IMG/VR virus record: IMGVR_UViG_3300006920_000010
Location: 1-46,960 of that record
Origin: a virus
Length of the DNA stretch: 46,960 bases
Direction: 5' to 3' (one strand)
Shown one piece after another: positions 2,228 to 7,301 of this stretch (position 1 is the stretch's first letter; the number at the start of each line of letters is the position of its first letter). The translations under genes and the position numbers were made by a program. The notes under the pieces are model-generated. The model saw only the letters and a list, made by a program, of their open reading frames with translations. It had not been told where the DNA came from and searched no databases.

Positions 2228-3016
2228 ATGAGAGTTACTGGTATCGCACGTTACGTGCATGTCATCACCCCGTCTGCACCGAAAGGCTCAGACAAACCAA
2301 AATACAGTGCTAACGTGCTGGTTCACAAGAGTGATCCGCAGGTGCCCATCATCACCGCTGCTGTTGAAGAAGCGAAGCTGAAGGGATTTCCGTCGGGTTT
2401 CCCCAATGGTGGTCATTCTTGTTGGAGCGATCTGGCGATCACCGAGCCTGAGAACGCTGCGACTCGTGACTACATGAGCCTATCAACCAGCACCAATATC
2501 GCCAACGGTAGACCACACTTTGTGGATGATGCTCAGTTACAGCCAATCATCGACCCTGGTGCTGATGACGCGACAACAGGCAAGATCATTCATGTCGATA
2601 TCGGCATCGCCTCATACGATCAAGTCAGTAAAGGCGTGAAAGCCTACCTGAATGGTGCGTGTGTGACTCAAACTGTTGGTGTTATCCCTCGTGAAGTACT
2701 GTCAAGCAAGCCGTCAGCTGAACAAATGTTTGCCGGTCTCAACGGGGCACCACCCATGGCACCACCCATGGCACCACCCATGGCAGCACCTGCACCTGTG
2801 GCACCTGCACCTGTGGCACCTGCACCTGTGGCACCTGCACCTGTGGCACCCGCTCCACCCGCTCCTATGGCACCACCAGCGGCAGCACCTCAGCCTCAGT
2901 TCGTGATGACTGACAAAGCCACCACAACCCGTGAGGCATACCATGCGGCTAATTGGACAGATGTCATGCTGATCGAGCAGGGCATGATGCTTCCACCCGT
3001 GCAAACGTCGTTCTAA
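2228..3016 (+). CDS. DUF2815 family ssDNA-binding protein with Pro-Ala tail linker
   Basis: This 262-residue protein resembles DUF2815, a phage family related to OB-fold ssDNA-binding proteins. The N-terminal 175 residues form the core, including IHVDIGIASYD-x5-GVKAYLNG, a family hallmark. After it come MAPP and APVAP repeats (about residues 174-215) and an acidic, hydrophobic tail. A good AGGAG site precedes the ATG. It probably coats single strands for the polymerase and the neighbouring nuclease. The gene ends at a strong terminator (3023-3052). The Pro-Ala linker echoes that of the protein at 525-914. Confidence 0.85.
   Translation: MRVTGIARYVHVITPSAPKGSDKPKYSANVLVHKSDPQVPIITAAVEEAKLKGFPSGFPNGGHSCWSDLAITEPENAATRDYMSLSTSTNIANGRPHFVDDAQLQPIIDPGADDATTGKIIHVDIGIASYDQVSKGVKAYLNGACVTQTVGVIPREVLSSKPSAEQMFAGLNGAPPMAPPMAPPMAAPAPVAPAPVAPAPVAPAPVAPAPPAPMAPPAAAPQPQFVMTDKATTTREAYHAANWTDVMLIEQGMMLPPVQTSF
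2746..2845 (+). repeat. Tandem 12-base and 15-base repeats inside the ssDNA-binding gene
   Basis: Three perfect copies of GGCACCACCCAT (2746-2781) are followed by four perfect copies of GCACCTGCACCTGTG (2786-2845). They encode MAPP and APVAP linker units. The identity of copies at DNA level suggests recent expansion by slippage. Confidence 0.95.
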
Positions 3017-3022
3017 CCCACT

Positions 3023-3052
3023 CGACCGGTGAAGCAGCCGGTCGTATTTTTT
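3023..3052 (+). terminator. Rho-independent terminator after the ssDNA-binding gene
   Basis: A perfect 7-bp stem, CGACCGG (3023-3029) with CCGGTCG (3038-3044), has an 8-base loop and is followed by TATTTTTT. It lies 7 bases after the stop codon. It should end or attenuate transcription between the first four genes of the operon and the dUTPase-polymerase part. Confidence 0.88.
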
Positions 3053-3055
3053 ACA

Positions 3056-3146
3056 TGAAGGTGCTGGAGCGCACAGGTTCGATTCCTGTAAATGTCTGGA
3101 TGACCGGGTTTGATTCCCGATGAGAGTTCGATTCTCTCGACCTTCA
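3056..3146 (+). ncRNA. tRNA-like element with three T-arm hairpins
   Basis: Three hairpins carry 7-base loops of the tRNA T-loop type. They are ACAGG-TTCGATT-CCTGT (3073-3089), CGGG-TTTGATT-CCCG (3105-3119) and GAGAG-TTCGATT-CTCTC (3122-3138). They are enclosed by a 7-bp acceptor-like stem, TGAAGGT (3056-3062) with ACCTTCA (3140-3146). The third T-arm sits one base from the acceptor strand, close to tRNA geometry. No normal D-arm or anticodon arm fits; read as an anticodon loop, the middle loop would present TGA. No CCA is encoded. It may be a fused remnant of tRNA genes or a structured phage RNA. Structure is by eye; function is unknown. Confidence 0.55.
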
Positions 3147-3164
3147 CTTAAACAGGTACTCACC

Positions 3165-3365
3165 ATGAGTCTTTATGAGCCAGCAAGCAAACGCAACCGT
3201 CACACTGGTCGCATCAACGCGTACAAGCGTGACATTCTCGACAAGGCTAAGAAGAACGTCTTTGTCTGCGCACAGGGTCACACGTACTCTGCCGCACAGG
3301 TTGGCACGAAACTTAATGCTGATCACCAGCGATACAGCGGGTGGTCAATCGTTCGACAATTTTAA
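3165..3365 (+). CDS. Hypothetical protein, 66 residues
   Basis: This is a small basic protein whose N-terminus is rich in Arg and Lys (SKRNRHTGRINAYKRDILDKAKKN). A short region follows with a cysteine, two histidines and a C-terminal aromatic patch. I recognise no family. The ATG at 3165 has only a modest upstream AGG; an earlier in-frame start would fall inside the tRNA-like element. It lies between that element and dUTPase, in the same direction, with a 25-base gap to dut. Confidence 0.6.
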   Translation: MSLYEPASKRNRHTGRINAYKRDILDKAKKNVFVCAQGHTYSAAQVGTKLNADHQRYSGWSIVRQF

Positions 3366-3390: not shown

Positions 3391-3828
3391 ATGATTAAAG
3401 TAAAAAGATTACACTCAGCAGTCTCGATCCCGACGCGTGCCAGTGCTGAAGCTGCCGGGTTCGACCTTCGTGCTGACTTGTCTCATCGACAACGTTTAGT
3501 GATAGCCCCCGGTCACCGTGAGTTAATCGGTACAGGGATTCAAGTCGAGCTGCCTGAAGGTACCGTGGGCATGATTAGACCACGCAGCGGATTAGCACTA
3601 AGACACGGCATCGATGTAATGGCGGGTGTGATTGACGCTGACTACCGGGGCGAGCTCCTGGTTGTGCTCATCAACCACGGCCAGGATGCTGTCACCATTG
3701 ATCCAAACGAGCGGATAGCTCAGCTGGTTGTACAAGAGTTACCCGATAACTATCGCATGATCGAGGTCGATGAGATCGGTGATACCGTGCGCGGTGACTC
3801 AGGTTACGGAAGCACGGGCAGAAGCTGA
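3391..3828 (+). CDS. dut: dUTP diphosphatase (dUTPase), trimeric type
   Basis: This 145-residue enzyme hydrolyses dUTP to dUMP and pyrophosphate, keeping uracil out of phage DNA and feeding dTTP synthesis. All five motifs are present in order: AGFDLRA (22-28), PRSGLA (64-69), GVIDADYRGEL (79-89, catalytic Asp83), RIAQLVV (108-114) and RGDSGYGSTG (134-143). The last motif supplies the glycine-rich arm that closes over a neighbouring subunit's active site. The length is typical of the trimeric family. AGGAG (3379-3383) sits correctly before the ATG. The stop overlaps the DNA polymerase start, so the two are likely co-translated. Confidence 0.96.
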   Translation: MIKVKRLHSAVSIPTRASAEAAGFDLRADLSHRQRLVIAPGHRELIGTGIQVELPEGTVGMIRPRSGLALRHGIDVMAGVIDADYRGELLVVLINHGQDAVTIDPNERIAQLVVQELPDNYRMIEVDEIGDTVRGDSGYGSTGRS

Positions 3829-6426: not shown

Positions 6427-6726
6427 ATGAACTTTTTATTCATGAGTGATTTTTGTAAGTTAGCTCACATGTCACAAAGTAAAACCGAACAGACAGTGGA
6501 CCGGCTGAAGAGGATGGGCGTCGAGCCGATGGCCTGGATCGCAGGAGAGCGTGATGGTGGACCATTCAACAGACCACTGTATGTGTTGGCACAGCTAAAA
6601 ATTATCGAGGCTCACAACGCCACGCGGAACTTGCCGTCACCGGGCAAGACAGACGGTCGAATAGATGAGATGCAAAAGCAGCTCGATCAGCTGGTGGAAA
6701 AATTCACAACAGGTGACAAGGTATGA
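6427..6726 (+). CDS. Hypothetical protein, 99 residues, C-terminal coiled coil
   Basis: The protein has no family I recognise. Residues 10-35 (CKLAHMSQSKTEQTVDRLKRMGVEP) could form a small helix-turn-helix-like unit, and residues 78-95 (GRIDEMQKQLDQLVEKF) a short coiled coil suited to dimerisation. A DNA-binding or adaptor role is a guess. AGGAG is well placed before the ATG. Its stop overlaps the next ATG by four bases (ATGA). Confidence 0.75.
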   Translation: MNFLFMSDFCKLAHMSQSKTEQTVDRLKRMGVEPMAWIAGERDGGPFNRPLYVLAQLKIIEAHNATRNLPSPGKTDGRIDEMQKQLDQLVEKFTTGDKV

Positions 6727-7301
6727 CTCCCTCAGACCCTCATGAACCCGGCGTAAAGCATGACGATGAGAAAACAATGGCTGGCGTGCTGGGTGACTTT
6801 AGTCGTGCGCTGAATGCTGTCGCAGAAGTAGGCACGTTCGGTGCGAAGAAATACACACGAGGAGGGTGGCGCACTGTGCCTTACGGTAAGACACGCTACA
6901 CCGATGCGATGTGGCGACACTTACTGGGAGAGAGTGTTGAGGCACTGGACCCTGAGTCTAAGTTGCTGCACGCTGCTCATCTGGCATGGAACGCTTTGTC
7001 ACGGTTAGAACTAATCCTTGCTGATACTGAATCATTAAGCCTGTCCCCTGGTGTTCCCACACTGACAGATAACGTGGTCGATCATGAAACAATAAAGATA
7101 TGTGGGATATGCCTTCAGAGAGAGTGCGTGTGTGTCCAAAAAGTCAAACCACAGCCAGACCCCCACGCGTGTAAAGTATGCCACTGGGCTAACTGTCAGT
7201 GTCCTGATAAAAAAAGCAAGGAGAAGAAAGTGTGTAAAGTGTGTAAGCAGCAAGTCTCTCGTCTGCGACCCTCCGGTAAATGTATGAAGTGCGATGACTG
7301 A
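6723..7301 (+). CDS. DUF5664-type (dATP/dGTP diphosphohydrolase-like) protein with three cysteine clusters
   Basis: Residues 11-100 match the phage DUF5664 family, annotated as the N-terminal domain of dATP/dGTP diphosphohydrolases: KHDDEK, FGAKKYTRGGW, RHLLGESVEALDPES and HAAHLAWNALSRLEL. These keep the acidic and histidine residues expected for metal-dependent nucleotide hydrolysis. A linker leads to three four-cysteine clusters: C127/C130/C135/C137, C150/C153/C158/C160 and C171/C174/C187/C190, each suited to one zinc. The C-terminal 65 residues are therefore a zinc array, an uncommon addition. It could bind nucleic acid or a partner and so place a dNTP hydrolase near the replisome. It overlaps both neighbours. 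Confidence 0.8.
   Translation: MTPSDPHEPGVKHDDEKTMAGVLGDFSRALNAVAEVGTFGAKKYTRGGWRTVPYGKTRYTDAMWRHLLGESVEALDPESKLLHAAHLAWNALSRLELILADTESLSLSPGVPTLTDNVVDHETIKICGICLQRECVCVQKVKPQPDPHACKVCHWANCQCPDKKSKEKKVCKVCKQQVSRLRPSGKCMKCDD

Follow-up and report, generated by a model that had tools for sequence, protein, structure and literature searches.

An optional phage RNA element with three tRNA-type T-arms on a single acceptor-like stem

Introduction

Eukaryotic RNA viruses are well-known mimics of tRNA, and bacterial immunity is increasingly found to target tRNAs. Within a stretch of 46,960 nucleotides of viral DNA (hereafter the window, which corresponds to the 47-kb linear IMG/VR record IMGVR_UViG_3300006920_000010), a preliminary description made from the letters had pointed out three successive hairpins resembling the T-arm of tRNA, with TTCGATT or TTTGATT loops and stems of 4-5 bp, enclosed in tRNA fashion by an outer 7-bp stem. 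Three readings were offered for them: a fusion of several tRNA 3' ends, a decoy for tRNA-modifying or tRNA-cleaving enzymes, or an RNA processing signal; relaxed covariance-model searches and covariation in relatives were suggested as checks. The locus thus raises the questions of whether this arrangement is a real RNA structure, whether other phages carry it and what its role could be.

Results

The window element and its surroundings

As shown in Table 1, the three T-arm hairpins were located exactly where they had been described, and the outer stem was recovered in the fold with all seven pairs. The minimum-energy structure (RNAfold) holds the four helices together, and each of the three T-arms is closed by the G53-C61 pair typical of tRNA. 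The folding energy was ordinary (z = -1.45, or -1.66 with flanks), so the case for the element rests on its motif and on its relatives. A descriptor scan of both strands detected one triple T-arm cluster in the real window; its 200 dinucleotide shuffles gave six clusters of two T-arms but no triple one. The element is present as a single copy in the window record, and its identification as a structured RNA is strongly supported.

Table 1. Features of the window at and around the triple T-arm element.
Feature	Position	Strand	Remarks
Gp2.5-like/Enc34-like ssDNA-binding protein	2228..3016	+	upstream gene
Intrinsic-terminator-like hairpin (3023-3044) and U-tract TATTTTTTA	3023..3053	+	terminator scan
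Whole triple T-arm cloverleaf (91 nt)	3056..3146	+	fold, motif scan, shuffles
Outer acceptor-like stem, 5' strand TGAAGGT	3056..3062	+	7/7 paired with 3140-3146
Mini D-like hairpin 1, GC-TGGA-GC	3063..3070	+	precedes T-arm 1
T-arm 1, 5 bp, loop TTCGATT	3073..3089	+	
Mini D-like hairpin 2, GTC-TGGAT-GAC	3094..3104	+	precedes T-arm 2
T-arm 2, 4 bp, loop TTTGATT (U replaces C56)	3105..3119	+	
T-arm 3, 5 bp, loop TTCGATT	3122..3138	+	no preceding D-like hairpin
Outer stem, 3' strand ACCTTCA	3140..3146	+	no CCA after
TAAACAGGTAC	3149..3159	+	predicted pairing with terminator U-tract 3044-3053 (fold)
ORF of 66 aa without family	3165..3365	+	downstream

The likeness to tRNA is partial. T-arm 3, with its consensus loop, stands beside the 7-bp stem as in a tRNA; the anticodon arm is absent, its middle place being taken by another T-arm, and the lack of an encoded CCA was borne out. 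The absence of a D-arm, also claimed in the preliminary description, holds for a full D-arm but not for the two mini hairpins with GG in the loop, which precede T-arms 1 and 2 of the three. ARAGORN called no tRNA at the element and Rfam assigned it to no family at the gathering score; when relaxed to E<=1, Rfam returned just a fragment of the tmRNA model, with 8.5 bits compared to a gathering score of 84.

The element lies directly after a terminator and before a reading frame, as had been noted. Downstream of the outer stem, the predicted pairing of TAAACAGGTAC with the terminator U-tract covers a Shine-Dalgarno-like AGG of the next ORF and represents a weak counterpart of the bracket helix of around 20 bp found in relatives (see below). 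The genes of the window phage include a phrog_1252 DNA polymerase, a Gp2.5/Enc34-like single-strand-binding protein, an exonuclease-like DUF2800 protein, a dUTPase and a helicase. Apart from this, the tail of the ssDNA-binding protein (2750-2870) contains Pro/Ala/Val repeats, and the product of the ORF at 462-914 has a long stretch of Pro and Ala.

Elements of the same plan in other phages

A scan for three spaced T-loops in 2.9 million viral contigs, followed by a test for the outer stem, yielded about 13 independent elements of the same plan in other phages. One of them comes from an isolate, cyanophage S-CRM01, where a tRNA-Ser gene follows shortly downstream; others belong to large phages with tRNA arrays (L121/L254, L156/L225/L240 and L203), and further members were detected in contigs L079, L152, L184, L202, L211, L233, L244 and L257. 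The window element shares the traits of this group, namely three T-arms within approximately 125 nt and, next to the last of them, an outer stem of 6-7 bp. Several of these elements sit within tRNA gene arrays, and ARAGORN miscalls some of them as tRNA-Ser; triple T-arm RNAs explain puzzling annotations of this kind in phages.

Short linkers characterise 33 distinct triple clusters from viruses, and 16 of these have an outer stem with all 7 bp formed, compared to 2.4% (39/1,650) when the 5' flanks were shuffled. MAFFT alignments of the elements were out of register, and pairing was judged by swapping strands between elements or, for the Streptococcus set described below, by counts of structure pairs. 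Among the 14 independent elements, that of the window included, the outer stem formed 6.86 of 7 pairs with its own strands vs. 2.52 with swapped ones, the own-strand sum being reached by none of 20,000 permutations, and the T-stems formed 3.6-3.8 of 4 pairs vs. 1.8-2.1. As read from these sequences, pairing is kept across the 14 elements and the letters diverge; together with the four compensated pairs of the Streptococcus set, they show a structure conserved by compensation.

In named phages, the nucleotide search with the window element returned only a short tRNA match and one chance match, and no match was obtained in plasmids. Nothing other than an identical copy was found for the element itself, hence its conservation is argued from the relatives. 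In bacterial genomes, the same pattern corresponded mostly to coding or tandem repeats, with few structured cases, one of them (L320) consisting of a tRNA followed by two T-arms.

Other arrangements of T-arms were observed alongside. A phage tRNA array in L200 (494-745) contains a 7-bp stem (AGAGAGT...ACTCTCT) with three T-arms and almost no linkers, followed by more T-arms. In the near-identical phage contigs L081, L099, L112, L116, L144 and L185, a tRNA-like piece (GCGTGTA...CACACGC) holds two T-arms and another hairpin and lies about 15 nt after a further T-arm. A second, different arrangement is also conserved and usually comprises a true tRNA, a T-arm some 10-20 nt further on, a CTCGCTGGCCGAG-like mini hairpin, a GATCTGGTGAAGGA-like sequence, another T-arm and a conserved structured stretch; it was located in L089 (4568), L103 (782), L120 (1991, minus strand), L122 (4816), L125 (954), L145 (1202, minus strand), L146 (3616), L177 (9658, minus strand) and L235 (6212). 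In the six of these loci searched with Rfam, tRNAs were the only hits, and the arrangement looks like an undescribed tRNA-linked phage RNA.

Linkers, promoters and terminators

The elbow of tRNA is produced by docking of the D-loop GG on U55 and C56 of the T-loop. A small hairpin with GG in its loop could be drawn in 38 of the 42 linkers of the 14 elements (mean of 26.7 and maximum of 34 in shuffles), and GG itself was present in 41 (shuffle maximum, 40). By these counts, the linkers appear as mostly D-arm-like GG hairpins and as non-random. By analogy with the docking of the two loops in tRNA, each unit of GG hairpin plus T-arm can be read as a possible elbow, and the longer members may look like tandem D-loop/T-loop elbows, three per molecule. 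The U that replaces C56 in the second T-loop of the window could make the docking weaker there. The GG-loop hairpins are mostly missing from the compact form found in Streptococcus, in which the predicted fold lets the linkers pair with each other instead.

Promoter-like sequences of the form TTGACA/TTGACG-17-TATATT, or near to it, were detected in L254, L240, L225 and L203, with the predicted start at around the first nucleotide of the outer stem, and TTGATA-17-TATAAT upstream of the element in L202. Terminators follow the elements in L079, L202 and L244. The members framed in this way look like RNA genes, as judged from sequence readings rather than mapped starts. A promoter scan recognised no sigma-70 promoter near the window element; consequently, a free RNA there would need read-through and processing.

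An optional insert in Streptococcus phages

In the Streptococcus phages Javan355 (a prophage of S. oralis) and MissE1 (a prophage of S. mitis), a triple T-arm element of 92 nt immediately follows an intrinsic terminator, with the scaffold and capsid genes located downstream of it. When 80 related contigs were compared, the 92-bp element was found in two (L470 and L471), and an empty junction, in which the T-run of the terminator is followed by a GTCCAA or GTCCGA leader, was recognisable in 75; the other three failed this pattern and were also without the element. Similarly, the terminator stretch is shared by 68 named phage records, and the match extends over most of the query in MissE1 and Javan355 alone. 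The ends of the insert match those of the outer stem within a base or two. Three distinct sequences of this element are available, with four T-stem pairs changed on both sides, and all 69 cells of the set are paired (100%), whereas sliding the partners destroys the pairing.

These data support that the Streptococcus element is a discrete accessory insert, with the moron-like trait of being present or absent between close relatives. Streptococcus phages with and without the 92-bp unit constitute natural comparison pairs.

Variation at the junction in relatives of the window phage

The dUTPase relatives were tried as a guide to the kin of the window phage and had no neighbouring genes in common, and relatives of its DNA polymerase were used instead. 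These show that the junction after the ssDNA-binding protein gene is a recurrent site for such elements. Versions with two T-arms were found at or near it in L397 (64% polymerase identity) and L408 (54%), the sequence in L397 being repeated in L416, and a single T-arm in L420. A long bracket helix without any canonical T-arm occupies the site in L400, L413, L415, L418, L431, L439 and L443, T-loop-like sequences being present in L415 and L418. The bracket helix of the relatives measures 18-23 bp and in most cases begins in the terminator U-tract; in eleven such helices, including that of Vibrio phage 1.185.O (L453), pairing was 99% with own strands vs. 53% with swapped ones. The bracket helix of the window is weak, and the automatic helix search missed the short outer stem of the window element.

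Absence of the element was also evident. Phages PS25B.1 (L451) and 1.021.A (L454) share the upstream terminator with L453 but lack the element that the latter carries, and L446 has a terminator hairpin near-identical to that of the window with the dUTPase directly after it and no element. Regarding the presence of the hairpins in close relatives, on which the preliminary description had made its reading depend, two- and one-T-arm versions do exist at the junction, but other relatives have versions with zero T-arms or no element. The existence of positional relatives without any T-arm means that T-arms are not obligatory at that site. As far as these comparisons reach, the element at this junction is optional and its number of T-arms variable, from zero to two in the relatives when not absent altogether. 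The element is, in summary, a real and optional phage RNA.

Two further observations concern these genomes. In a podovirus relative (L407, around 3440-3615), the position of the window element is taken by a tRNA-Tyr(gta)-like gene that includes CCA and whose anticodon loop is interrupted by an intron-like insert of 94 nt. In Vibrio phage 1.185.O, 'CRISPR spacer' features are annotated inside a hypothetical gene beside the DNA polymerase (MG592551, 28101-28318; 6684-6901 of L453), which are probably a coding-repeat artefact.

Discussion

A multivalent decoy as the leading hypothesis

The leading hypothesis, to which we would give a probability of about 0.4, is that the element is an accessory tRNA-mimicking small RNA that would act as a multivalent decoy of the tRNA elbow. 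A single acceptor-like stem would bear three T-arms and, in the longer relatives, a GG-loop hairpin would dock on the T-loop as the D-loop does in tRNA, giving up to three elbows per molecule. Some relatives would be transcribed from their own promoter, and the window RNA would arise when transcription runs through the preceding terminator, the transcript then being trimmed by the tRNA-processing enzymes of the host. The RNA could then bind a host or defence factor that grips the T-arm or elbow of tRNA, several copies at once, and compete for it. As the arms repeat only this part of the tRNA, the factors to be considered are those that grip it, candidates being RNase P, RNase Z, TruB/TrmA, the CCA enzyme or a tRNA-attacking immune effector. 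A review of the tRNA elbow describes it as the part by which RNase P, RNase Z, TruB and the CCA enzyme, among others, hold tRNA, and notes viral decoys that imitate it (PMC4810234); also, the tRNA-cleaving immune effector Cas12a3 contacts the T-arm (PMC12851939). The decoy idea of the preliminary description thus survives as the leading putative function, although the anticodon nucleases that it had named fit poorly as the target because the element has no anticodon arm.

A wider proposal, which we find possible but on balance doubtful, is that these elements form an undescribed class of accessory phage RNA with several elbows per stem, acquired repeatedly by unrelated phages to defeat bacterial defences or to redirect host tRNA enzymes; the acquirers may include cyanophages, podoviruses, Streptococcus prophages and large phages with tRNA arrays. 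If the RNAs do bind elbow-recognising enzymes, they would give phages a compact means of acting against tRNA-directed defence or the maturation of host tRNAs.

Alternative explanations

The element could instead be a punctuation mark for RNA processing, with RNase P and RNase Z cutting at its ends within the mRNA, in such a way that the upstream message keeps a protective terminator hairpin and the downstream one is freed. In the window, the Streptococcus phages and the podovirus relatives alike, it is placed exactly between the terminator U-tract and the following gene, which agrees with this role; the bracket helix of the positional relatives could be a site for RNase III, and tRNA mimics that recruit RNase P have been described (PMC4810234). 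However, the same terminator and downstream leader occur without the element in 78 of the 80 Streptococcus loci, and a similar picture is given by L451 and L454 vs. L453 and by L446 vs. the window. As close relatives with an intact junction lack the element, the operon does not need it, which argues against an essential processing signal. Furthermore, a single T-arm would suffice for this purpose, and several relatives start at their own promoter, so no 5' cut is needed. The processing signal of the preliminary description is weakened by these relatives and is kept as a rival, albeit a rather unlikely one.

A cis-acting leader, in which the T-arms or the bracket helix would control translation or termination of the neighbours, for instance by capturing TruB or another T-arm enzyme or by masking a ribosome-binding site, seems to us improbable. 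The predicted extension in the window, in which the U-tract pairs with the AGG belonging to the next ORF, speaks for it, as does the AGGA within the helix in L408, but the ribosome-binding site lies outside the helix in L397, L431 and others, the downstream genes vary among relatives and the promoter-driven copies in tRNA arrays are not the leader of one conserved gene.

A degenerate tRNA gene, or a pile-up of the tRNA 3' ends that repeated integration leaves behind, is very improbable. Such pile-ups do exist, as in a Bacteroidales genome (L341, around 6697-6869, minus strand) where a tRNA is followed by tandem copies of T-arm plus acceptor 3' strand (GTGGCTCCA), and the tRNA-Tyr-like gene of L407 stands at the position of the window element. 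In the triple T-arm elements, on the other hand, the acceptor 3' strand is found a single time, compensatory changes preserve the outer stem across unrelated phages, the boundaries of the insert coincide with the RNA ends and the D-like hairpins are non-random. The fusion of several tRNA 3' ends proposed earlier is consequently not supported, the linkers being D-like or short and not acceptor remnants. Equally slight is the chance of a DNA-level element devoid of RNA function, either a tiny mobile unit or an inverted-repeat site. It would fit the 92-bp unit, which is bounded by a 6-bp inverted terminal repeat and occupies one junction in some phages but not in others, and the long inverted repeats at the terminator in relatives of the window phage. 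Against it, the T-stems are compensated too, the T-loop consensus of tRNA is retained in the loops, some copies are flanked by promoters and terminators, no target-site duplication is definable and the window record holds one copy.

Comparison with known tRNA-like RNAs

Canonical tRNA (RF00005) shares with the element the 7-bp acceptor-like stem, the T-arm with G53-C61 and U54 U55 C56 R57 A58, and GG loop pieces, and elements of the group are often inside phage tRNA arrays; in contrast to tRNA, the element has three T-arms, no anticodon arm and no encoded CCA. No prior description of tandem, multiple or triplicated T-arms was found in Rfam or in the open literature, a coverage that leaves most subscription journals outside. 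The element adds to tRNA mimicry a form with triplicated T-arms that is absent from Rfam and from the literature searched.

Among the precedents checked, the nearest in phages is RNA C (species 1) of phage T4, which, like RNA D (species 2), is annotated as a small stable RNA beside phage tRNA genes. RNA C (139 nt) has one canonical T-arm close to its 3' end, but this is its single T-arm and the other arms are dissimilar, whereas no T-arm is predicted in RNA D; neither shares the architecture of the window element. The tRNA-like structures of plant RNA viruses such as TYMV mimic tRNA including the D-loop/T-loop elbow (PMC4810234), although they are 3' ends of RNA viruses with one elbow, compared to three T-arms in the RNA of a DNA phage. 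Finally, the interdigitated T-loop motifs of the L1 stalk, RNase P and the T-box also hold multiple T-loops per RNA (PMC4810234), but these are paired pentaloops that recognise elbows. As the T-loops of the element are of the seven-base tRNA type and set in a multi-arm junction, it would more likely be a mimic of the elbow than a reader of it.
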